From a virus, in the IMG/VR virus record IMGVR_UViG_3300032164_000006, positions 1 through 64,000 of that record: a DNA stretch of 64,000 bases. One strand, written 5' to 3'. Positions 361 to 55,258 of the stretch are shown one piece after another. Position numbers and translations under genes: made by a program. Below the pieces are notes generated by a model. It did no database searches. It was not told where the DNA came from and saw only the letters and a program-made list of their open reading frames with translations. Numbering within the stretch: position 1 is the stretch's first letter; each line of letters begins with the position of its first letter.

Positions 361-1143
361 ATGGAATTAACTAGAGCCAACAAGATTGATTTGTTTGACC
401 AGTATGGTCGCAAGCTAGAAGGTCATTGTGCAATTGTGGACGACAATGACCACACCAGAATTTTCAGCGTTGCGTCTGACAGATACACCCTCATACAGCA
501 CGAGGAGGCGTGTGACAGTGTAACCAATGCTTTGGACGAAATGGGCTGTAAATTCAAGCAAATTAGGACGACAGACAGGGGACCAACCCTGTTTGCCGAG
601 TACGACTTGCCAACTGTTCGACACGACGTCGGTGGTGTTGGCGACATTATAAATCTCAGGATTGGGGTGTCCAACAGCTACGACTGCAGCTCTGGCCTCC
701 GTACCGAGATCTATGGTCACAGGCTAGTGTGCTCCAACGGAATGTTTGTCTCACACATCCTAAATAAATTCTACAGTCGGCATATCCATGGAATTGACCT
801 AGACTCAATTCGGGAAAATATTGTGACGGGAATTGCTGCATTTCGAAACGAATTCGCTGGAGTTATAGAGACCTACACCAAAGAGTACATGGACCAGCGT
901 GGAGCCTTGGTGTTCCTAGACAAGTGTATTGAGGATAAGGTGATAGCAAAAAAGTACCTTGAAAGCGTCAAGGTACTCGTTGAGGGGGATAGTGGTATCG
1001 AGAGAACACCTGTTCAGAACAAGTGGGGATTATATAACAGAATTACAGAAGTGTTGACACATCAAACAGATGATATTTTTTCGCAACGCAGAAATATCTA
1101 TAAGATGGAAAAATTGCTGTCTAATTACAGTATGGCAGCCTGA
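361..1143 (+). CDS. DUF932 family phage/plasmid protein
   Basis: 260 residues. The central stretch (VSNSYDCSSGLRTEIYGHR followed by a VCSNGM motif, about residues 101-123) matches my knowledge of DUF932 (phage/plasmid-like TIGR03299) proteins, which are common in phages and mobile elements and lack a settled biochemical function. No signal peptide or membrane segment is visible. An AAGGAG-like site just before the ligase stop precedes the ATG. It forms one operon with the ligase fragment and the small gene downstream, which places it in an early or middle DNA metabolism unit rather than the virion module. Confidence 0.75.
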   Translation: MELTRANKIDLFDQYGRKLEGHCAIVDDNDHTRIFSVASDRYTLIQHEEACDSVTNALDEMGCKFKQIRTTDRGPTLFAEYDLPTVRHDVGGVGDIINLRIGVSNSYDCSSGLRTEIYGHRLVCSNGMFVSHILNKFYSRHIHGIDLDSIRENIVTGIAAFRNEFAGVIETYTKEYMDQRGALVFLDKCIEDKVIAKKYLESVKVLVEGDSGIERTPVQNKWGLYNRITEVLTHQTDDIFSQRRNIYKMEKLLSNYSMAA

Positions 1144-1159: not shown

Positions 1160-1390
1160 ATGACAAAAATGAAAACTTTAAACTGGAATCAGGTAGAAGC
1201 AAAAGCAAAAAAAATGTCAGTTGTAGAACTGGAATACTCGGTAAAAGATTGCTGCGAAGCGAGGGACGCATCGCGCGGCTGGAATCCAGAAAACGAGAAC
1301 TATTATCAGGATGAGGCTAGTGTTTATTCGCGGGAGCTACGAAAAAGATTGGACAAATATCTAACATCGAAAAAAAAGTATTTTGAATAA
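1160..1390 (+). CDS. Small hypothetical protein (76 aa)
   Basis: Start set at ATG 1160, preceded by AAGGGAG at good spacing. The open frame extends upstream, but only through the tail of the DUF932 gene. The protein is lysine- and glutamate-rich, predicted mostly helical, and ends in a basic tail (KKKYFE). I recognise no family. It is the last gene before the left repeat array and probably shares the upstream transcript. Confidence 0.6.
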   Translation: MTKMKTLNWNQVEAKAKKMSVVELEYSVKDCCEARDASRGWNPENENYYQDEASVYSRELRKRLDKYLTSKKKYFE

Positions 1391-1411
1391 GAAAGGGCAA
1401 CAAAATGAAGA

Positions 1412-1851
1412 CATTTTTAGAAGACAGTTAGGGTCTTTCCTCTAACTGTCCGCAAACCTCAGTTTCTCCGAAAGTAGAGTGAAGGACAAACTGAAGACAC
1501 TTAAGGTCTTTCCAACCACTGTCCGCAAAAGGTCCTTCATTCTGTCTTTCTAGTCAGTTAAGGTCTTTCCTCTAACTGTCCGCAAACCTCAGTTTCCTCT
1601 AAAGTAGAGTGAAGAACAAACTGAAGACAGTTAGGGTCTTTCCCTCAACTGTCCGCGAAAGGTCCTTCATTCTGTAGTTCTAGTCAGTTAGGGTCTTTCC
1701 AACCACTGTCCGCAAACCTCAGTTTCCTCTAAAGTGGAGTGAAGAACAAACTGAAGACACTTAGGGTCTTTTTCTCAACTGTCCGCAAACCTCAGTTTCT
1801 CCGAAAGTAGAGTGAAGAACAAACTGAAGACACTTAGGGTCTTTCACTCAA
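1412..1851 (+). repeat. Left hairpin-repeat array (direct repeats, inverted copy at 52001-52427)
   Basis: Three modules alternate. H (about 34 nt: GAAGACAGTTAGGGTCTTTC, a variable part, then AACTGTCCGC) starts near 1420, 1493, 1555, 1623, 1685, 1753 and, partial, 1826. X (39 nt, containing AAACCTCAGTTT and ending GAAGAACAAACT) starts at 1454, 1584, 1714 and 1787. Y (28 nt, containing GGTCCTTCATTCTGT) starts at 1527 and 1657. Order is H-X-H-Y-H-X-H-Y-H-X-H-X-H. The first H folds into an 8-bp stem (ACAGTTAG with CTAACTGT, 10-nt loop). X can pair CAGTTT with AAACTG. There is no coding potential. The array runs directly into an intrinsic terminator. The spacers are themselves repeated, so it is not a CRISPR array. 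Confidence 0.95.
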
Positions 1852-2174
1852 GGGTATTCTACTCGTTTAGAATACCCTTTTTTTATGATTAATTCTGCAA
1901 TTGAAACTCCATCCACAATCACGTCCGCTAGTATTCTAAAATACTTGCACCGACCAGCGTTCATTAGATCAATCCTCTTCGCACGAGAGAGGATACCATG
2001 GACGTAGATTTGAGCATCTAGTGCCGACTTGGTCTTGTCTCGCATTTCGTCTGTGTCTATCCCACGCACCCTTACTGGTATGCGGAGGCCTAGTAGTGGG
2101 TGGACTTCAGTTATGTTAACAGTTATGGTATCACCATCATAATTCTTGACATATTCTACATTCTCAAATTCCAT
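1848..2174 (-). CDS. Staphylococcal nuclease-like (thermonuclease, SNase/OB-fold) protein
   Basis: 108 residues, close to a minimal SNase domain. Features seen: DGDT (residues 13-16), VRVRGIDTDE with candidate catalytic Arg37, Asp40 and Glu43, then KYFRILADV with candidate Arg80, and a C-terminal GVSIAELII segment typical of the family. SNase proteins cleave DNA and RNA with Ca2+. No signal peptide is visible, so it probably acts in the host cytoplasm or is packaged; host DNA breakdown or recombination are plausible roles. It is the only clear minus-strand gene in the window. Its last codons overlap a terminator for the opposite strand, and its start faces a divergent region holding a palindrome. 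A GGGG stretch lies about 5 nt before the ATG. Confidence 0.8.
   Translation of the reverse strand: MEFENVEYVKNYDGDTITVNITEVHPLLGLRIPVRVRGIDTDEMRDKTKSALDAQIYVHGILSRAKRIDLMNAGRCKYFRILADVIVDGVSIAELIIKKGYSKRVEYP
1850..1884 (+). terminator. Strong intrinsic terminator after the left repeat array
   Basis: A perfect 12-bp stem (AAGGGTATTCTA 1850-1861 with TAGAATACCCTT 1868-1879), a 6-nt loop, and a T run through 1884. The T run lies on the + strand side, so it stops transcripts coming from the ligase/DUF932/array side before they enter the convergent nuclease gene. The stem also encodes the last codons of that minus-strand gene. Confidence 0.9.
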
Positions 2175-2204: not shown

Positions 2205-2276
2205 GTATTTAATATAATTAGAGTTGTTCATTGGATGCTCATATTGTATTTATATATTTATAATTCTGGAGATGCA

Positions 2277-8942: not shown

Positions 8943-10148
8943 ATGGGTATGTCAAACAAAGAGATCATCAGCAAGGCACAGATCACTACAGATGCTATCG
9001 CCTCCGCTGGTAAACTCAATCCACAGCAAGCAGATAAGTTCATCGACTATGTTTACGACTTAACAGGTCTCAAAAACAAAGTTAGGACAGTTCGGTTCAG
9101 ACCAGACCAACTGGATATCGACAAGATCAATATTGGTCAACGTGCGGCTGTTGCGAAATCAGAAGCAACAGATCCACAGGTTCGTCGTGGCGTTACAACT
9201 TCTAAGGTGACTTTGTCTCCTTTCGAAATCATGGTTCCTTTTGAAATCTCTGATGATTTCATGGAATACAACATCGAAGGCGATGGCATTGAAGATCATG
9301 TTATCCGCATGATGGCAACTCAGCTCGGCAACGACATGGAAGAGCTCTACATCGATGGTGAGAAGCTTGGTCCAGCTAGATTCCAAGGCGACTTGTTTGC
9401 CAACGGATCTTTAGCTCACGCTGTAAAAGATACCTACATGGGTCTTGGCGACGGCTGGCTGAAAAAGGCACGAGGCGGGAACGTTGTTGACGTAGCAGGT
9501 GCAAACATCACTTCTACTGTATTCAGCAACATGATTAACGCGATGCCAGAAAAATACAAAAGAAACAAAGCGAACCTTCGTTTCTTCTGTTCAACAAACA
9601 TCGAACAGAACTACCGTCAAGCAATTGCTTCTCGTATAACTTCTGCTGGTGACAACGCTCTTTCTAGCGAAAGCCGCTTGACTCCATTCGGTATCCCGTT
9701 AGATCCATTCTCCCTCTGGGCATCTACCCCACGAGTTACTGAGCATGTGACCTTAACCGGAACAACTCCAACTTCATTGCTCTTCAAGAACATTGTTGTG
9801 GACAGCGAAGTGGTTGTGCTTTCTAGTCTTGGCGGAACACCGACTGCACCATTTGTTGAAGGTGCACCTGCCGACTATGTTATGGACTACGTCAATGGTA
9901 CAATATCTAGATCAGCAACATCTGGGATTTCTAGTGGTGCTGTCGTTAAGATTACTTATCAGTCTGAAGCACAAATCATGCTTACTGAGTACCGAAACCT
10001 TATCGCAGGTATCGGCCGTGAGATCCGCATCGAAAAAGATAGAGATATCTTCCGTGGTGTGAATCAGTATGCTATTACAGCCAAGGTCTGCATGGAAATT
10101 GAGAACCTAGAAGCTGTAGTTTGGGCAAAGAACATTGGCCTGAAATAA
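8943..10148 (+). CDS. Major capsid protein, HK97 fold with inserted beta domain
   Basis: 401 residues from ATG 8943, preceded by GGGAGGAG at 7-8 nt; the open frame includes a TTG at 8925 that lies before this site and is unlikely. The order of an N-terminal helical arm, strand-rich E-loop region (VRTVRFRPDQ), the long P-domain and a C-terminal IRIEKDRDIFRGVNQYAIT strand matches HK97-type capsid proteins. Residues about 264-340 look like an inserted beta domain (LTGTTPTSLLF to VVKITY) with a DYVMDYVNGTI hairpin. Position after protease and scaffold supports the call. Confidence 0.85.
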   Translation: MGMSNKEIISKAQITTDAIASAGKLNPQQADKFIDYVYDLTGLKNKVRTVRFRPDQLDIDKINIGQRAAVAKSEATDPQVRRGVTTSKVTLSPFEIMVPFEISDDFMEYNIEGDGIEDHVIRMMATQLGNDMEELYIDGEKLGPARFQGDLFANGSLAHAVKDTYMGLGDGWLKKARGGNVVDVAGANITSTVFSNMINAMPEKYKRNKANLRFFCSTNIEQNYRQAIASRITSAGDNALSSESRLTPFGIPLDPFSLWASTPRVTEHVTLTGTTPTSLLFKNIVVDSEVVVLSSLGGTPTAPFVEGAPADYVMDYVNGTISRSATSGISSGAVVKITYQSEAQIMLTEYRNLIAGIGREIRIEKDRDIFRGVNQYAITAKVCMEIENLEAVVWAKNIGLK

Positions 10149-10180
10149 ATTTGGCCTGAAATAAATTTGGACTGAAATGA
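10137..10180 (+). repeat. 16-bp tandem duplication spanning the capsid stop codon
   Basis: GGCCTGAAATAAATTT occurs at 10137-10152 and again at 10153-10168, followed by a diverged third copy beginning GGACTGAAATGA. The first copy contains the capsid gene's TAA. It is probably replication slippage at the gene end; each unit carries its own stop in the same phase of the repeat. Confidence 0.85.
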
Positions 10181-43356: not shown

Positions 43357-46300
43357 ATGACACATTCTAATCAAATATTGGACAGGAAAAACAGAGCACA
43401 CGTTCGGTCAACTGTTGGAGAAAATCTGGAGAATATTCTAGATTTGGTTGATGACAGATTGTCGTATCCAATGGAAGTTTCCATCGGCGGCTATACCATC
43501 ACAATTGGGAGTGGACTCCTGCAGTCCGCGGAATCAAACAGCCTAGATGGTAAATCCGACTCATATAGGGTTGGCGTTCCACCTCTAGCTGGACTTGAAA
43601 CGAAGCCAGTTGTGTCCAGTCTTGTGCTGAACACAGGAGCATACGACGGTGACTTTGAAGTACCAACCAATCCAACTCTAACTCCAAACCAATACATTAG
43701 AATGGGTATTGAGCTGCGACCAGATGGAAAATACTACGCTGTTTTTGGAACGCCGAGTGCGTTGCTGACAGGGTGTGGATATCCTCCATTTGCCATTGGT
43801 GCCTCAATCCAAATTATGGTCATCGACCTGCAAGATAGTGGTTCTGGTGGGAACTGGAGCTACAAGGTTCCAGCAAAAAAAGACGTCATAGTGTTCAACA
43901 ACCCTAGTGCTGGAGGCGGTGGAACACCCAACGCAAAGCTGATGGGTGGAGGCGTGTGGGCTGCATCAAATAATCTTGGTGACACACAATTAGAGTGGAA
44001 TGGTGTTGCGTATGTTTCTCTTCCGGGATTACAGAAAGAGCGAAACACAATACAGCCGGACATCATATCTTTGGCAGAAGACGAAGCTGCCTACGTTATC
44101 TTGAACAAGTTGGCTGGTCCAAACGAGGATCTCGTCGTTCAGAAAGACCTGTTCGTCAACATATTCCCATACAATCCAAATCTATTTTTAATAGCAAGGG
44201 GATTTGCTGGGGGAGTGCTGGTTGGTAACTCTTGCTTCAGCTTAATTCATGGAGAATCAAAAGAGCTGGACACTGGCATGTCTATCCAAAACAGGCAGCT
44301 ATTGGGGTCTGACGTAGATGAGACAACGTCTGTACCAGAATACTCTTTGCGTGGTGCTCCAGAAAGAACACTGGACGACACACAACCCGTCCTAGAAGCA
44401 TTGTCTAGCGTGGATGCAGAGATAGATAAGTTTTTTGGACAGCTGAGAATAATCCCACACGAAAGCGACACAAACAAAATAAGAATAACAGGGGTTGATT
44501 TCACCATGAAGGATGGCTCTATATTGAGCCAAGAGATTGCAAGTCTTCTTCTGAAATTCGACGGAGCAGTAGTAAACCTGACAACTGGTGGAGTGTTCGC
44601 CTCGAATGGGACAACCCCAATTGGAATAAACTTTACTCCAGCCACAATCCCTCTTTCGTCTTATAACTGGTATTCCATAGGTCTTGTCGCAAACACCATA
44701 ACAGCAAACGGAGCAATGACAGCTCAGTTGATTGTGCTGTCTGGTGGTCCAAACACATCGTCTTCGGCCACAACAATCCCTAGCTTTGCTGGCTCTAAAA
44801 AGGTTGGTCTGGTTCAGGTTCAAAACTCTGGCGGGAGCATTGTACGCACAGCCATACGACAGCTAGGTGCTGGAACTGGAAGCGGAGGCGGTATATCCAA
44901 CGCCAAGTTAATCAATGGTGGGAAATTCTACTGGACAGGAGAAATAGAATCTGTTTCCAGTAACTCTGTATCTCCAAACAGCGTCAACATCAACAATATG
45001 TTCTCGGATTGGAATGCTTGGCAGACCTTTGTTGCTGTCGGCTCTGGCTTGACAAAGTTCTCATCTACCGCTTTTTCTAGGTCTAACTCTGGGGTAACAG
45101 GTGTTCTTCGTGGCTATCTGTATGCTGTAAACCAAAGCACAGGTCTTCCAATTGCTACGCTCCTCGCTACGTCTATAAACACAGTACCAATTGAGACTCT
45201 GGAAACACAATCTTCCGTTAAGCAGTACACCCCCGTGACGTTCAATTTTTCTGGCGAAACTCTTGTTCCAGGAACCAGATATTGTGTTCTAGTCAAGGTT
45301 GTTTCTATCAGCGGTGGATGGATTGCACCCTACATAAACAACACGAACCCACTTCCAAACGAAAAGGCTGGCATACAATTTTCTGGGTTGAGTGAGACAG
45401 TTGGAATGGACATCAATATGTCTGTTGGTCAGCTAGGTGTTGGAACCCTCAGCTGGGATTCCGCTGCATACGTTTCAATGCCCGGACTAGACTTTGCAAG
45501 AAACACAATCCCAGTTGGATCTTCATCCCTAGGGTTGGACGAGGCTCTGTACGTCAAGGTATCCACACTCGACGGAGTCGCTGCAAACCTAACTGTAGAG
45601 CGAGGGAACATAACAGACATTTCGCCCTACGACTCAAGCATATTCATCTTTGCTGTTAAGACTGCCGAAGGTGTTGTTGTTGGCGACACGTTGCTTGCTG
45701 CTGGACAGTCGAGGAAGCTAGACGACAACAGAGTGTTTACGTTCAACAGTTCTTCTCCTGCAACTCTGACAACCCTAACGTCTACGAAATACGTTGGTGG
45801 ATATTATTTTCCACTTGGTGGGAGAATTAAGAGTGGGGTTGTAATCTACGGGAACGTGGTTTCTGATGGAAACCTAACTATCGAAACCAACGTCACAATC
45901 TTTGGAAGTGTCACTACAAACGGAAACAACTTAGAGTTTGATTCGACCTATGCTTCGGCAAACGAAACAATCAAAATCTACGGAGATTTACTTTCCGGAT
46001 GGACTTACTTCACGTCCGCAACAAACAGCCGACAACACACGCTAACAGTTTACGGAAGTGTCACAGCTGGATCATTCTATCTGGACACTCTAAACTCCAC
46101 ATCCGATATGCTCAGCATCGAAGTGAAAAGAAGTTTTATAACTTCGGAATTCAGTGCCTACACAAAAACAAACAACTCTGTAACTGTTGCGGCAATCACA
46201 GTCCGAGGCGACCTAATTTGCTCGCAAGGTTTGACAATCAAGCACCTAGAAACTTCAACAGCACAAGGATACAGAACAACCATCGGCGGGAACCTAATAG

Positions 46301-49300
46301 TTCAGGGTTCTCTGGTCTATGGCTTCTACGACTCGGCTACAGGAAACTCTAGCAGTTCGTCTCTAGGATACCTAGACGTTAGGGGTGTCACAAAAATAAG
46401 TGGAAACGCATCGTTCAACGCTAGGTCTGAACACGTCTTCTATGGTGAGACATACATCGGTGGAAACCTATTTGTCTATAGTGCTGTAAACAACGTCACC
46501 GAGACAAAAATAAAGTTCCGTGGAAATGTTTCTGTAAACGGAGAGGTCACCCTAGCTGCTCCAACTGGAACCTCAGTTGTTGGTCAATACACTATAGAGG
46601 CGTATTCTGAATTTAGAGCTAGAGCTTTGAAGAAGGTATATTCCAACACCTACGCTTCGGTACGAGGGTACGGAAAAACAGATTACAGGATACCCAAAAT
46701 CTACGCCGACGGAGTTCTGGCAGATAAGCAAGTTTACTTTCTAATGTCTGATTCTGCTGGCCAAATGTCGTTGGAAACATATAAGAACACCAACGTAGAT
46801 GTGAAGCTGGCGAACGTTGGATTTACAGTTCTCAAGACGCTGACAGACGGACTAGCGTTAATGAGAAAATACAACTGGAATAACGACCAAGCCTATGTTG
46901 TGCAGTATGGTAGAGACGACTCGATGTACGACATAGTCGTAGATGCTTCTGGGAAAGGAGACTACACCTCCCTTCGTCTTGCGTTGTTGGCGGCTGGAGA
47001 AAACGACACAATATTCATTCGCAATGGTGTCTATAACGAAACAACTGATTCCCTGTACCTGAAGTCAGGACAATCAATCATAGGTGAATCTAGAGACGGA
47101 GTTATCCTTACCACTAGCACGACAAGTTGGTTTTTCAGTGCATATAACAGAATTGGTGGACTCTACTCGACATATCCAGCAACAAGCAACCTAGGCTTCG
47201 ACTCTGCTACTGGCATCGGTACTGTATCCATAACTAACGGATCAAGACTTGTAACATACACTGGAACAACACACCCATCCGACGGAAAAATAGCCTACAT
47301 CCTAGGTGACTGGTACACAATCAGCAACACCGACACAGTGAACAAGACGTTCAACGTGGATAGGGATATTTTCAAGAGAACACAGACGGGTCTACCTTGG
47401 AGATTTGCGACAACACAAGGAGGGGTAGACTACTCGGTCACACCAAACCAATTCCTGAGAATAAAGAACCTAACCTACAAAGCAACAACAGCGGCTTCAT
47501 TCTTGTATGCGAATGCGTGTGCAAACATTGAAGTAGAAAACGTAGATGTTATTTCTACAGCATGGAACAGCTCGTCAAACGCAATAATCTACGGACAAAA
47601 CATGACGAACGTTAGTGCTAGAAATATCCGCTTCTACAACAAGAACACAACTGCCGGAGCCGACGAACCGAACGTGCTCTATGTCTATGCTGCGTGGGAT
47701 TGCTCGTTTACGGAATGGGAAGTCTACGGTGGAAAATACATGAGAATGGATGGTTCCGCTGGAGCCGCGATGAACTACCACTGTAAGGTCCACTTCAGTA
47801 GATTCGAAAGCGACGCTCTAATGTGGCTGTCTCTAGGCTTCTGTCAGGAATGTGATTTTTCGTTTGGCGTTATAAATTGCAATCAGTTCTGTCAGAGCGA
47901 ATTCAACTTCCACAAGTGTCGGCTAGATTTCTTCGAAACAAGAATGTTTGGGGGTAGCTCATATATCCGAGGACAAGACAACATAGTCAACTTTGGGAAT
48001 ATGTATCTCGACGGTGCTTCTTTCTACGTTAATAAGGCTCAAGCATCTGGGTATCTTTCCAAAAACATTCTTGTATCTGGAAACGTCATTGGAACTGGAA
48101 CACTCTATCTAGACGACAGCGTGTACCTAGGAGACAGCGTCTACGTCCAAACTTTGGGTGGAACAGCTCCAGCACGAACACCAACACCAAGAACAAGTGC
48201 TGTTGTTTTGGATGCTGCTGGAGGAGGCGACGCAACAACGCTCGCAGCTGCGATAACCAAGGCTGGAAACTACGGATCAATCTTTGTTAGAAACGGAACG
48301 TACACCATGTCTAGTGGTGTCAGCTTATCTATTGGCCAAACAATCTTAGGTGAGTCCAAGAACGGAGTTATCCTAGAGTTTACTGGTGGATATATCTCAA
48401 TGCCATATCCAGTTTCATACAACATAGGAACTAGCTTCACAAACGGAGATCCAAGAACACCGAGCACAACCTACGCTTGCGGATTTCTGACGCTAACCAC
48501 AAGTTCCAGAACCATTGCATACTCTGGAGACATCGCTCCAACTGTAGGCAATATTCTACGAGTACAGGGCGAATGGTTCGAGGTCATGACTGTAGATAGT
48601 GGTGCGAAAACATTCACAGTAGACAAAGACGTTCGTCACGCTCCGTTCTCCAATGTTTGGTGTAAATTCTACCAAAAACAATATGGAGTAAACATATCCC
48701 AAAATCCATCTATCAGGTCTTCTATTAAAAACCTGACAGTGAAAATGACGTCAGGAAACATGGCGATAAACGTGGGTTCTTGCTGCGACGTAGAGGACGT
48801 TGACATTATAGACGTTGCAGCTAGTGGATACGGTGGAATGTTGCAAGGTGGGCAAGGGATTTGCGACACGAACGTGCGTAGGGTAAAAATCATAAACGCA
48901 AACATCAACTCTGGTGCAACAACAACATATCTGCGAGCAATATATTTGAGTGGAGCACAAGATTGTACCTTCGAGAACATAGAGTGTCACCACACCAACA
49001 ATGACATGATAGGTGGAGCTAGTTTCAACAATCCAGTGATAAACTGTAAATTCCACTTTCTGCGTAAAGTTGGATCAGGTCCAGCGTTCCAACCACTCGG
49101 CTACATGACAGAGTGTGACCTGACAATAGACTTCATGGAACACACCAACCTCCAAGACGTCAGCGCCTCTTGCTGCCTATATAACTGTCGGGTTAAGTTT
49201 GGCCAATCCAGATTCACTGGAAACGTCTATATGTATTCCCTAGGCTCTACATTCGACCTAGGTCATATGTGGAACGTCGGCTACGCTTATGTCATTAGTG

Positions 49301-52005
49301 GTTCACCAACAAAGACCCCACTCAACAAAGTAAACTCTGGACGGCTATATGGCTCCACAGCTTTAGAAGGTCTACTCAGCGTCGATGCATCTGTTATCCT
49401 AACCGACAACATCCAAGTAAACCAACTTTCTGGAGCACCATACTCGTCCCCAACAAAAAAGATGTGGACTATTGTTGCTGCAGACGGAACTGGCGACTAC
49501 ACGAGCATCAGCTCTGCTTGTTCTAACATGCCAGAGGGAACTACATTTTTCATAAGAAACGGAGCCTACACCGAAGGTGTAATTTCTGCAAAAGCAGGAC
49601 AGAAATTCATAGGGGAATCAAAGGCTGGAGTCCGAATAACGGCTTCTAGTGGTGTGCTGTTCCAGCCAACTGGATACTATGCTGGTGGATGGCGTTCGTC
49701 TCTCAACTCGACAACATACGAAGAATTTTCATCGACAGAAAACCTCGGTCTAGCTTCGACAACCCACAACAGTACGACAGTCTCGTACAGCGGAACAGGT
49801 TCGAACCCATCTGCGAACCAGTATGTAAGGATGTGCGGAGAGTGGTACAAGTTAATCAGCGTAGACACGGGTCTAAAAACATTCGTAATAGACAGAGCGT
49901 TTACAAAAGGAACCTACACCCAAATTCCAGTGCTTATGATGTCATTAAATACCGGATTCTACGAACTCCACACTTATCAAAGTGGTGGAATGGAATTCAA
50001 AAACATGACCATACTTTCTGGAACGCAAACCAACTTCCAAGGCTTCAACATCACATCGCAGGTTGGTCTTGTTATAGAAAACATAGACGTCATCGGTGAG
50101 AACGCCTCGGCTGGTTTCACTCCATTCTACCTGTACTCTTGCGTAGGGATGAGAATGAGAGATTGCGGACAGTACGCTATGGGAACAACAACACTCAACT
50201 CAAAGTCTCAGATAACATCTGGATGGGAAAACGTAATAGAAAATCACGTTATCTTTGGTGGATACCAAACAGAGATCTACGGCTCTGCACAGTCTCCAGC
50301 ATATAGGTGCAAGTATCACTTCAGAAACATCACTTGCACCGATGCAATGTTCCAATTCTTTAGGGCAATGTATGAGTGCGAGATTGAAGTTGAGCGTGGA
50401 CAAGCCGAAAGAGTTACATCTCAGACAGGAGACGCTCCATCTAGGTGTGTATTCCGCTTTGGAAAGATACGCACAACCCAAGGAAGCATAATCAAGAGTA
50501 TAGGCTGTCAGTTCCATATTGGAGATTGGATTGATAGTGCTGGATCTACGTTATCGCTCGGAAAAGGTTCTAACGGAGTCAGCTTTACTCCATACAACAA
50601 GTTGATGTCTGGAAACTTTGGCGGAGCGTTGTCAGTTGACGGAAGTGTTGTAATAACAGATGGATTCCAATACACCGGAACTCTAACCGGAACTCCAGCC
50701 TACAAACCTATTCTTAGTGCTGCTCCAAAACAATATGACTATGTTGTAGATCCTGCTGGAGGGGGAAGCCACACAACAATCCAAGCTGCTGTCGCCGCTG
50801 CTATAGACGGGAAAACCATATACGTTAGGAACGGGAACTACGACATGCTAGGTGTTTCCGCATCGGCAGCTAATGGCTTGTCTATTATCGGTGAAACAAT
50901 GGACGGTGTGAGAATCTCATCTAGTTCGGATATGTTCGGTGTTTCTGGGGGAGGCCTCATGATGCGAGCTAGAACACAGCTGATAGCAAACCAGACAACC
51001 TTTGATACCACAACCAATATTGGAACTGTGACTGTAACGAACGGGAGTACAGCCGTTGTTTACACTGGAGATCTTACTGGAATTAGCGGCTCAATCACAA
51101 TAGGGGATGCTATTGCTCTAGGCTCGTCTGAGTTGTATTCTGTTGCTGGAATAAACACAGGAACAAAAACAATCACACTCAATACGGCATACATTGGAGC
51201 CTCTGGTGCTGGACTACCATGTTTCATAACATTCGGTACTCCTACAAACTTAACGAGATCATGTTTCACTCTGAAAAATGTAACTCTCATTTTGACTGCA
51301 GGAAACCAATGTATCCAAGCAAATAATGCCTACAAATTGCATCTCGAAAACATCACATGTTTCCATGCAAACACAGGCGGATCTGGTCTTGTTACGATGC
51401 AAAGTGGATTCAGAAACAAATTAATCAACGTCAGGACAATTTCAACATCTGCTGCTGGATATGCTGCTTTCAATTGCACCGGAGCGTGGGGACTAGAATT
51501 TGTGAACGTTGAATGTGAAAGATCAAAATACAACTATTGGGGTGGTGGAACAACAATTCCTAGTCTGTATTGTGACCTCCACTTCAAGAGGATTACAGAA
51601 TCACCTGCTCTATTTTTCCTAGGATGGGGTGGTCAAGCATTCTGTTCACTTGTGATAGACCATATTGAGGGGTGTCGTGGTGGGTTCATGCAAGATGGCG
51701 GTGGAACAGCTGAAGACCTATGGCATTTTTATGTGGAAATAAAACGTATGTCGAATTGTGCTGGACAGATATCTCTGTTCGGTAGGAATGTAACATTCGT
51801 TGGTGGGCATCTACATCATGCTGGTTATTTCAGGCTTAAATCTAGGCAGGGTTCGACAAACAACGTGATGATGAGTGGGATGTTTACATCAATCCCAGCC
51901 AGCAATTTGGAGGTGGATAGCTCCACAATTATTTGTTCGGCTGTTAACTATCCGACAGGTGCTCTGTCTGGTAGTCCAAAACGCAACGATGGTTTCGCGT
52001 TCTAA
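43357..52005 (+). CDS. Giant tail fibre with four tandem pectin-lyase-like modules (2882 aa)
   Basis: The largest gene in the window, preceded by GAAGGAGCAGG. Residues 1-800 hold beta modules, two related to each other (WNGVAYVSLPGLQKERNTI and WDSAAYVSMPGLDFARNTI). Residues about 810-1150 form a Gly/Asn-turn beta-helix. Four modules of about 420 residues begin near 1190, 1612, 2034 and 2460, each starting VVDASGKGDYTSL-like, then TIFIRNGVYN-like, GQSIIGESRDGVIL-like, followed by a small insert ending KTFNVDRDI-like, then the beta-helix rungs. The pectin-lyase-like fold is common in capsule or LPS depolymerases; catalytic residues cannot be assigned here. Probably receptor-binding or glycan-degrading. 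Confidence 0.75.
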   Translation: MTHSNQILDRKNRAHVRSTVGENLENILDLVDDRLSYPMEVSIGGYTITIGSGLLQSAESNSLDGKSDSYRVGVPPLAGLETKPVVSSLVLNTGAYDGDFEVPTNPTLTPNQYIRMGIELRPDGKYYAVFGTPSALLTGCGYPPFAIGASIQIMVIDLQDSGSGGNWSYKVPAKKDVIVFNNPSAGGGGTPNAKLMGGGVWAASNNLGDTQLEWNGVAYVSLPGLQKERNTIQPDIISLAEDEAAYVILNKLAGPNEDLVVQKDLFVNIFPYNPNLFLIARGFAGGVLVGNSCFSLIHGESKELDTGMSIQNRQLLGSDVDETTSVPEYSLRGAPERTLDDTQPVLEALSSVDAEIDKFFGQLRIIPHESDTNKIRITGVDFTMKDGSILSQEIASLLLKFDGAVVNLTTGGVFASNGTTPIGINFTPATIPLSSYNWYSIGLVANTITANGAMTAQLIVLSGGPNTSSSATTIPSFAGSKKVGLVQVQNSGGSIVRTAIRQLGAGTGSGGGISNAKLINGGKFYWTGEIESVSSNSVSPNSVNINNMFSDWNAWQTFVAVGSGLTKFSSTAFSRSNSGVTGVLRGYLYAVNQSTGLPIATLLATSINTVPIETLETQSSVKQYTPVTFNFSGETLVPGTRYCVLVKVVSISGGWIAPYINNTNPLPNEKAGIQFSGLSETVGMDINMSVGQLGVGTLSWDSAAYVSMPGLDFARNTIPVGSSSLGLDEALYVKVSTLDGVAANLTVERGNITDISPYDSSIFIFAVKTAEGVVVGDTLLAAGQSRKLDDNRVFTFNSSSPATLTTLTSTKYVGGYYFPLGGRIKSGVVIYGNVVSDGNLTIETNVTIFGSVTTNGNNLEFDSTYASANETIKIYGDLLSGWTYFTSATNSRQHTLTVYGSVTAGSFYLDTLNSTSDMLSIEVKRSFITSEFSAYTKTNNSVTVAAITVRGDLICSQGLTIKHLETSTAQGYRTTIGGNLIVQGSLVYGFYDSATGNSSSSSLGYLDVRGVTKISGNASFNARSEHVFYGETYIGGNLFVYSAVNNVTETKIKFRGNVSVNGEVTLAAPTGTSVVGQYTIEAYSEFRARALKKVYSNTYASVRGYGKTDYRIPKIYADGVLADKQVYFLMSDSAGQMSLETYKNTNVDVKLANVGFTVLKTLTDGLALMRKYNWNNDQAYVVQYGRDDSMYDIVVDASGKGDYTSLRLALLAAGENDTIFIRNGVYNETTDSLYLKSGQSIIGESRDGVILTTSTTSWFFSAYNRIGGLYSTYPATSNLGFDSATGIGTVSITNGSRLVTYTGTTHPSDGKIAYILGDWYTISNTDTVNKTFNVDRDIFKRTQTGLPWRFATTQGGVDYSVTPNQFLRIKNLTYKATTAASFLYANACANIEVENVDVISTAWNSSSNAIIYGQNMTNVSARNIRFYNKNTTAGADEPNVLYVYAAWDCSFTEWEVYGGKYMRMDGSAGAAMNYHCKVHFSRFESDALMWLSLGFCQECDFSFGVINCNQFCQSEFNFHKCRLDFFETRMFGGSSYIRGQDNIVNFGNMYLDGASFYVNKAQASGYLSKNILVSGNVIGTGTLYLDDSVYLGDSVYVQTLGGTAPARTPTPRTSAVVLDAAGGGDATTLAAAITKAGNYGSIFVRNGTYTMSSGVSLSIGQTILGESKNGVILEFTGGYISMPYPVSYNIGTSFTNGDPRTPSTTYACGFLTLTTSSRTIAYSGDIAPTVGNILRVQGEWFEVMTVDSGAKTFTVDKDVRHAPFSNVWCKFYQKQYGVNISQNPSIRSSIKNLTVKMTSGNMAINVGSCCDVEDVDIIDVAASGYGGMLQGGQGICDTNVRRVKIINANINSGATTTYLRAIYLSGAQDCTFENIECHHTNNDMIGGASFNNPVINCKFHFLRKVGSGPAFQPLGYMTECDLTIDFMEHTNLQDVSASCCLYNCRVKFGQSRFTGNVYMYSLGSTFDLGHMWNVGYAYVISGSPTKTPLNKVNSGRLYGSTALEGLLSVDASVILTDNIQVNQLSGAPYSSPTKKMWTIVAADGTGDYTSISSACSNMPEGTTFFIRNGAYTEGVISAKAGQKFIGESKAGVRITASSGVLFQPTGYYAGGWRSSLNSTTYEEFSSTENLGLASTTHNSTTVSYSGTGSNPSANQYVRMCGEWYKLISVDTGLKTFVIDRAFTKGTYTQIPVLMMSLNTGFYELHTYQSGGMEFKNMTILSGTQTNFQGFNITSQVGLVIENIDVIGENASAGFTPFYLYSCVGMRMRDCGQYAMGTTTLNSKSQITSGWENVIENHVIFGGYQTEIYGSAQSPAYRCKYHFRNITCTDAMFQFFRAMYECEIEVERGQAERVTSQTGDAPSRCVFRFGKIRTTQGSIIKSIGCQFHIGDWIDSAGSTLSLGKGSNGVSFTPYNKLMSGNFGGALSVDGSVVITDGFQYTGTLTGTPAYKPILSAAPKQYDYVVDPAGGGSHTTIQAAVAAAIDGKTIYVRNGNYDMLGVSASAANGLSIIGETMDGVRISSSSDMFGVSGGGLMMRARTQLIANQTTFDTTTNIGTVTVTNGSTAVVYTGDLTGISGSITIGDAIALGSSELYSVAGINTGTKTITLNTAYIGASGAGLPCFITFGTPTNLTRSCFTLKNVTLILTAGNQCIQANNAYKLHLENITCFHANTGGSGLVTMQSGFRNKLINVRTISTSAAGYAAFNCTGAWGLEFVNVECERSKYNYWGGGTTIPSLYCDLHFKRITESPALFFLGWGGQAFCSLVIDHIEGCRGGFMQDGGGTAEDLWHFYVEIKRMSNCAGQISLFGRNVTFVGGHLHHAGYFRLKSRQGSTNNVMMSGMFTSIPASNLEVDSSTIICSAVNYPTGALSGSPKRNDGFAF

Positions 52006-52427
52006 CTGTCTTCAGTTTGTTCTTCACTCTACTTTCGGAGAAACTGAGGTTTGCCGACAGTTAGAGGAAAGACCCTAACTGTCTTCAGTTTGTTCTTCAC
52101 TCTACTTTCGGAGAAACTGAGGTTTGCGGACAGTGGTTGGAAAGACCCTAACTGACTAGAACTACAGAATGAAGGACCTTTTGCGGACAGTTAAGAAAAA
52201 GACCCTAACTGTCTTCAGTTTGTTCTTCACTCCACTTTAGAGGAAACTGAGGTTTGCCGACAGTTGAGTGAAAGACCTTAACTGACTAGAACTACAGAAT
52301 GAAGGACCTTTTGCGGACAGTTAGAGGAAAGACCCTAAGTGTCTTCAGTTTGTTCTTCACTCTACTTTGAGTGAAATTGGCGTTTGCCGACAGTTGAGAA
52401 AAAGACCCTAACTGTCTTCTAAAAATG
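52001..52427 (-). repeat. Right hairpin-repeat array (inverted copy of 1412-1851)
   Basis: Read on the minus strand from 52427 inward, the modules are H-X-H-Y-H-X-H-Y-H-X-H-X-partial H, the same order as the left array. X units lie at 52014-52052, 52087-52125, 52217-52255 and 52347-52385; Y units at 52155-52182 and 52285-52312; H units fill the gaps. The outer edges are identical for 27 nt (52401-52427 against 1412-1438). One X (52347-52385) has a perfect 7-bp inner stem, TTCACTC with GAGTGAA on the minus strand. The array begins at the stop of the giant fibre gene. No open reading frame of interest is inside. Confidence 0.95.
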
Positions 52428-52568: not shown

Positions 52569-53483
52569 ATGTTGGATCTTATCAAGGCTAGAATTAGCAG
52601 ACTTGAAGAGGTATGTCCGACTATAGAAGTTGGAAACGCCTCGTATCCAACAAAGGGTGGTGACGACGACTGCCTATGGCTTGGTCTACTTGCATCGGTT
52701 GGCTATCAACCAGCAATGGACGGTGTGTTTGAATGCCAGAAGAGAGTTGGGGAGCAAGAAGGTTTATTCCTTGGAAATCCAAAGCTGGCAGCAAACGAAA
52801 AACAAGATCAATCAATCTTCTCTAGCGACATGGCTCTAGGCGTGTTGTGTTGGCTTGTGTCGTCGGAATACTCTGGTCGGAGTGTTCTTGCGGCTGAATT
52901 GTGGCTGAAATGGATAAATAAGAACAGACGGTGTTTGATACCAAATCCAAAAATTTTTGGAGGCGGCTGTCTGCTCCACGGTGGGTACAGATACGCACCA
53001 AGCAAAGACAAACGCTCTAACATCACACCTACAATGTGGTCTTTGATGGGTAGAGTTTGGGATCACAGAGGGTTAGAGCCACACAAGATGATGGAATTTG
53101 CCGAAGGGACTTTCGCTATAGTAGAGGATGAAGTTTCTGTTCTAGAAGCAGAATTTTGTGCCCTAGGCTATCAGCTACACCTAAAGGCTGTTCAAGCATA
53201 TATTAAGCTCCAGATTCAACAGTCGACAGAGTGCAGAAAGAAAGTGACAAAAATGTGTCACGCACGTTTACCAGCAAACCTATTCTACAAAGTCCTTTAC
53301 CAAGAAGGTGCATCGAAAGAAGACATGGAAGTTTTCTTGACAATGTTGCCGAACCCAATGACCTTTCGCCCACAGAACTATTGGTTGTGGGAGAGAGAAG
53401 ATTATACGGAAGCGGTAAGACAAGGAAATATGTGTGGATGGGACATGGTGTTCCTAGGGAAGTTAATTCTCCAATTCACATAA
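52569..53483 (+). CDS. Unknown enzyme-like protein (304 aa)
   Basis: TTGCGAGGACG precedes the ATG. The N-terminal GGDDDCLWLGLLASVGYQPA and the later QDQSIFSSDMALGVLCWLV recall a family of helical-toroid proteins seen, from memory, in bacterial and phage genomes, perhaps glycosidase-like, but no function is known to me. Cysteines are frequent. No signal peptide is present. It is placed between the fibre gene and a secreted protease, so a role in lysis or host envelope degradation is possible. Confidence 0.5.
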   Translation: MLDLIKARISRLEEVCPTIEVGNASYPTKGGDDDCLWLGLLASVGYQPAMDGVFECQKRVGEQEGLFLGNPKLAANEKQDQSIFSSDMALGVLCWLVSSEYSGRSVLAAELWLKWINKNRRCLIPNPKIFGGGCLLHGGYRYAPSKDKRSNITPTMWSLMGRVWDHRGLEPHKMMEFAEGTFAIVEDEVSVLEAEFCALGYQLHLKAVQAYIKLQIQQSTECRKKVTKMCHARLPANLFYKVLYQEGASKEDMEVFLTMLPNPMTFRPQNYWLWEREDYTEAVRQGNMCGWDMVFLGKLILQFT

Positions 53484-55179: not shown

Positions 55180-55208
55180 GCTGTATTCGGTCTTTGATCT
55201 CCGAGACT

Positions 55209-55258
55209 GCACACCTATATTTTGGCTGCCATGCCATTCTGTAGGTGTGCTTTTTTTT
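55209..55258 (+). terminator. Strong intrinsic terminator ending the lysis-like unit
   Basis: GCACACCTA (55209-55217) pairs with TAGGTGTGC (55242-55250), followed by eight Ts. The 24-nt loop itself can pair TGGC with GCCA. It separates the late genes from the replication genes downstream. The 98 bp that follow are AT-rich with a TTGCAC hexamer that could be part of a weak promoter; no strong -10 is visible. Confidence 0.92.

Follow-up and report, generated by a model that had tools for sequence, protein, structure and literature searches.

Two inverted copies of a non-coding mosaic repeat at the edges of the late module of a contractile-tailed phage

The arrays and their gene neighbourhood

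In this study, we examined a window of 64,000 nucleotides that makes up most of a viral record of 72,056 bases. The gene content, as named by PHROG and Pfam scans, is that of a contractile-tailed phage. The record is incomplete: a gene runs past its right end, its left end holds the apparent C-terminal part of a ligase gene, and contigs of relatives reach beyond it at both sides. Two repeat arrays lie at module boundaries, each with replication genes on one side and terminase and structural genes on the other. The features of the two loci are the following (window coordinates, except for the last line, which extends into the rest of the record).

361..1143, + strand: DUF932 gene, upstream of the left array and in the same direction
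1160..1390, + strand: ORF of 76 aa between the DUF932 gene and the left array
1412..1837, + strand: left array, a mosaic of 28-nt dyad cores and S/S' linkers with 73/57-nt spacing
1826..1851, + strand: seventh core, truncated
1848..2174, - strand: endonuclease gene, 108 aa, phrog_452
1850..1879, + strand: intrinsic terminator of the ligase/DUF932 operon, a hairpin plus T-run conserved in relatives without the array
2247..2262, - strand: two adjacent TATAAATA motifs, T4-late-promoter-like, facing the endonuclease gene
about 2.4-52 kb: terminase, portal, head protease, tail sheath, baseplate and giant fibre-like genes (PHROG/Pfam scans)
43357..52005, + strand: giant fibre-like gene, 2882 aa
52002..52427, - strand: right array, an inverted copy of the left array with the same unit order
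55204..55250, + strand: next strong terminator downstream of the right array (-25 kcal/mol, T8), also present in the relative L010
55-72 kb: helicases, primase, PolB, SSB-like, UvsX and SbcCD-like genes (PHROG/Pfam scans)

Positions and unit order can be read directly from the DNA. The left array and the reverse complement of the right one align over 426 nt, ungapped and 90% identical. Cores follow the pattern GACAGTTAG GGTCTTT N6 ACTGTC SGCAAA and iterate a dyad, GACAGT-N16-ACTGTC, whose half-sites stand 22 bp apart; within each array all cores share one orientation, at spacings of 73, 57, 73, 57 and 73 nt, to which the left array adds one more 73. Two sorts of linker join the cores, S and the shorter S'; being partly complementary, they make up a long stem in the computed fold. 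At the inner edge of the left array, the 3' part of the truncated core continues into sequence common to the array-less relative L005 (TTTCACT..GGGTATTC). Neither array stays open in any of the frames checked; both are thus non-coding, and a coding role was discarded. A possible 8-codon ORF (ATGAAGACATTTTTAGAAGACAGTTAG) at window positions 1405-1431 has its stop codon within the first core of the left array.

Each array has a constant frame into which variable blocks are set. All 12 complete cores carry ACTGTC unchanged, and 24 of the 41 core columns do not vary. When the 6-nt blocks after GGTCTTT in the cores and after TTT in S are counted as variable (60 positions), they hold 27 of the 42 left/right differences, the remaining 366 positions holding 15; the frame is about 96% identical between the copies, whereas these fixed blocks differ at 45% of positions. 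The enrichment (hypergeometric p 6e-16) is overstated, since changes spanning several bases are not independent events and the blocks were delimited only once the data had been inspected. The set of blocks is small (CCTCTA, CCAACC, CCCTCA, TTCTCA, CACTCA, TTCTTA and CTCCGA), and some are common to cores and S. Quasipalindrome template switching is not supported as their general source, the reverse complements of most blocks being absent from the same strand. In permutation tests the observed blocks showed no consistent tendency to stabilise the hairpin; CCAACC abolishes most of it, and several cores are unable to form the full stem. For the core stem, pair counts over the 11 distinct cores revealed no compensatory change and did not exceed those of shuffles; pairing capacity was nearly equal on the two strands (101 vs 97 of 121 cells). 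Because covariation is lacking and changes of the CCAACC type break the hairpin, what is conserved appears to be sequence rather than pairing. Both array strands nonetheless fold better than shuffles (z -2.9 to -4.7), as expected for a palindromic element. Conservation of the frame between copies may instead reflect recent tandem expansion or gene conversion.

A conserved terminator and a lineage-specific array

The terminator of the ligase/DUF932 operon (AAGGGTATTCTACTCGTTTAGAATACCCTT followed by TTTTT) has 12 pairs and a 6-nt loop and folds at -15.3 kcal/mol, an energy matched by 0 of 200 shuffles (z -5.9). A consensus terminator scanner alone would not establish it (4 found vs 3.3 expected); we regard the terminator as real because hairpin and T-run are conserved in three relatives, L005 (93% DNA identity), L006 (83%) and L007 (about 71%), all without the array there and all with the terminator a short distance after the last gene. 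A stable hairpin, a direct T-run and a position at the end of an operon, as in rho-independent terminators, are thus combined in four phages; the 12-bp hairpin and T-run here close a + strand operon from within the 3' end of an opposite gene, the one respect in which they depart from an ordinary terminator of this class. A strong terminator at the inner edge of the left array had been proposed in a sequence-only reading of this DNA, and the proposal is borne out, the hairpin directly adjoining the last, truncated core (1826-1851). What precedes the terminator varies: L005 has a different small ORF at the position of the 76-aa ORF, L006 has no ORF there and almost nothing before the hairpin, and in L007 the ligase gene comes before it. 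Since these relatives keep the terminator without the array, a variable gap before a shared terminator has either gained the array or lost it. What stands firm is an ordinary operon terminator, older than the repeat block and no part of it, and an array that either entered this lineage by insertion or was lost by the relatives.

These observations also qualify the earlier claim that the left array is transcribed and terminated as a unit. The operon transcript on the + strand should indeed cross the array into the terminator, the scan having found no other + terminator between the ligase/DUF932 operon and 1850-1879; yet a terminator that exists without the array in relatives does not make a unit with it. 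Likewise, array RNA was expected to be the + strand 3' end of the ligase/DUF932 transcript, which fits the genes on that side but overlooks the endonuclease gene on the minus strand. This gene is conserved at 63-84% identity in L005, L006 and L007, and its last codons (KGYSKRVEYP*) contain the + strand terminator, a double-use coding/terminator segment that is kept in the phage and its relatives. Two convergent reading frames thus have their stop codons on either side of the left array, and it may be transcribed on either strand. The TATAAATA pair, located between the endonuclease gene and the terminase operon, provides the sole exact matches to this motif in the 72-kb record, and one copy is kept in L007; the motifs are putative promoters.

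Among viral contigs the array was found here and in a single near-identical IMG/VR contig (L008), in which the left array is 100% identical; the left site has none in L005, L006 and L007. No match was obtained in phage and plasmid databases, and a core profile search over 203 kb of the phage and its relatives gave neither a match outside the arrays nor a diverged copy. Arrays could exist elsewhere in unsequenced parts of the relatives. Pattern matches in Bacteroidales MAGs and in two viral contigs were single sites, which on reading them we judged to be chance. No Rfam covariance model matched at the gathering score (only a sub-threshold mir-46, E 0.32), and our literature search found no direct precedent for the arrays.

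At the right locus, the stop codon of the giant fibre-like gene (TAA, 52003-52005), itself without a Pfam or PHROG match, is inside the array. The following gene in the direction of the fibre gene begins at 52569. From the fibre gene to 55250 the scan found no strong conventional + terminator before that at 55204-55250. With the array downstream and in the same direction, the readthrough from the fibre gene that had been foreseen agrees with the layout, and it is plausible that late transcripts pass through the right array, although hairpins within the array are themselves called terminator-like by the scan. Contigs of relatives spanning the right boundary were not found, and the sign of the GC skew does not change at the array. 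Within the giant fibre gene (window 44001-52000) the skew drops to about zero, being clearly positive elsewhere in the window; recent acquisition or a composition effect would be possible causes. Two further observations concern other genes. A tandem 16-mer (TTGGCCTGAAATAAAT, 2.8 copies, window 10135-10178) lies where the putative major head protein gene ends. L010 carries an insertion of about 0.8 kb in its helicase gene (between 2483 and 3301, corresponding to window 55732/55733), absent from the window copy, which by eye looks like an intein with an HNH-type endonuclease.

Interpretation of the paired arrays

Overall, we suggest, with a probability of about one half, that the arrays are one non-coding, lineage-specific, cis-acting mosaic repeat, present as two inverted copies that bound the late module, the complementarity of their RNAs being a by-product of inverted duplication. 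Such an element would act in cis, whichever strand is read, through its iterated dyad; recognition might be of the DNA itself or of short hairpins where transcription units end. Placed after the genes of the ligase/DUF932 operon and before the conserved terminator, the left copy would be carried as a long 3' UTR, and the right copy comes after the fibre gene; that the two + strand RNAs are 90% complementary would then follow from the duplication itself. Transcription, action in cis and a binding factor are what we infer; no binding protein or function was identified for the array. Put otherwise, strand-indifferent action in cis, or no action, at the ends of two transcription modules is the better-supported judgement.

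The sequence-only reading had gone further, proposing that the two RNAs pair in trans as an early/late switch or decoy: the left array RNA would end the early or replication transcript, its complement would lie in the late transcript, and the duplex would be cleaved by RNase III. The orientation is correct, and the inverted arrays (1412-1837 vs 52002-52427) do specify complementary + strand RNAs, as had been claimed, with exact runs of up to 69 nt within the 426 nt. Nothing in the scan interposes a strong conventional terminator between the fibre gene and the right array, and the co-fold reaches -697 kcal/mol against -120 and -140 for each RNA alone, an outcome expected for any complementary pair. 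However, inverted placement makes complementary RNAs unavoidable if both arrays are transcribed. As any inverted duplication yields such transcripts, orientation is no evidence of function. In the one left/right pair compared, no sign of selection for complementarity was seen, the mismatches being concentrated in the variable blocks. Each array folds strongly on itself, the left one also faces the conserved convergent endonuclease gene, and the element is missing from the left site of relatives at 93% and 83% identity, which argues against a part in any conserved switch. A trans-RNA switch is thus possible but unsupported, and we consider it very improbable, although, were it true, phages would have a temporal switch of a new kind. 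We think as little of the chance that the arrays are recognition sites with swappable 6-nt blocks, mirrored at the edges of the late module, whose two transcripts or DNA sites communicate and so couple the shut-off of replication genes to late expression. Two other regulatory roles were examined and rejected. One is a CsrA/RsmA sponge: the left array's minus strand is enriched in GGA (17 vs 10.7, p 0.006) but not in ANGGA (3 vs 2.9). The other is antisense action on the phage's own mRNAs: the arrays have no more 11-mers in common with the remainder of the genome than shuffled arrays do.

Two other explanations carry more weight than the switch. The arrays may be selfish or neutral, a palindromic sequence that grew in tandem and reached two intergenic gaps through recombinational copying, without a function. 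Its restriction to one lineage, the want of an ORF and its location at a site where relatives vary in length and carry other small sequence would all fit; on the other hand, neutral drift without conversion does not give the contrast between frame and blocks (15/366 vs 27/60), and the two copies sit at the two module boundaries, so that we hold this as a minority possibility. Larger in scope, a giant transposon made of the late module with the arrays as its ends was dismissed, array-less relatives having the same genes at the left boundary. A second minority possibility is a 3' UTR element whose hairpins shield the fibre and ligase/DUF932 mRNAs from 3' exonucleases or work in series as weak terminators; such a role would require no pairing between RNAs. 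In its favour, the fibre stop codon marks the start of the right array, the left one lies between convergent stop codons, and both strands surpass shuffles in folding. In the direction of the right array, T-rich DNA comes after the core hairpins, which the scan calls terminator-like at 52089, 52219 and 52349 (and at 1750 on the minus strand at the left array), but interruptions break up the T-tracts, and the scan is noisy and makes many such calls inside genes. Moreover, + strand transcription meets opposite strands of the element at the two loci, the stems lack covariation, and a full stem is beyond several cores.

Comparison with known repeat systems

Tandem short dyads with an invariant half-site recall the iteron or dyad protein-binding arrays of phage and plasmid origins, partition sites and operators, from which the present arrays differ in a spacing that alternates between 73 and 57 bp and lacks uniform helical phasing. 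Among the genes scanned, none was identified as a replication initiator or as ParB-like. A second likeness is to REP/BIME, described as extragenic palindromic units, regularly spaced, alternating in orientation and exceeding 100 copies per genome (PMC2817692). The arrays resemble these elements as an extragenic palindromic mosaic, in their regular spacing and in their position at transcription-unit ends and between convergent genes. By the same description they fall short of the REP/BIME copy number, with two loci in a 72-kb phage record vs more than 100 copies; their cores run one way within an array, whereas BIME units alternate, at a regular 73/57 spacing and with partly complementary S and S'. 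PHROG and Pfam scans covering part of the phage genes named no transposase. The arrays also contain 6-nt variable blocks, and the likeness is one of arrangement, without a demonstrated sequence relation. If the repeat does act in cis, it would represent a BIME-like mosaic at the two module boundaries of a contractile-tailed phage, unusual in that its frame is fixed while blocks of 6 nt vary.
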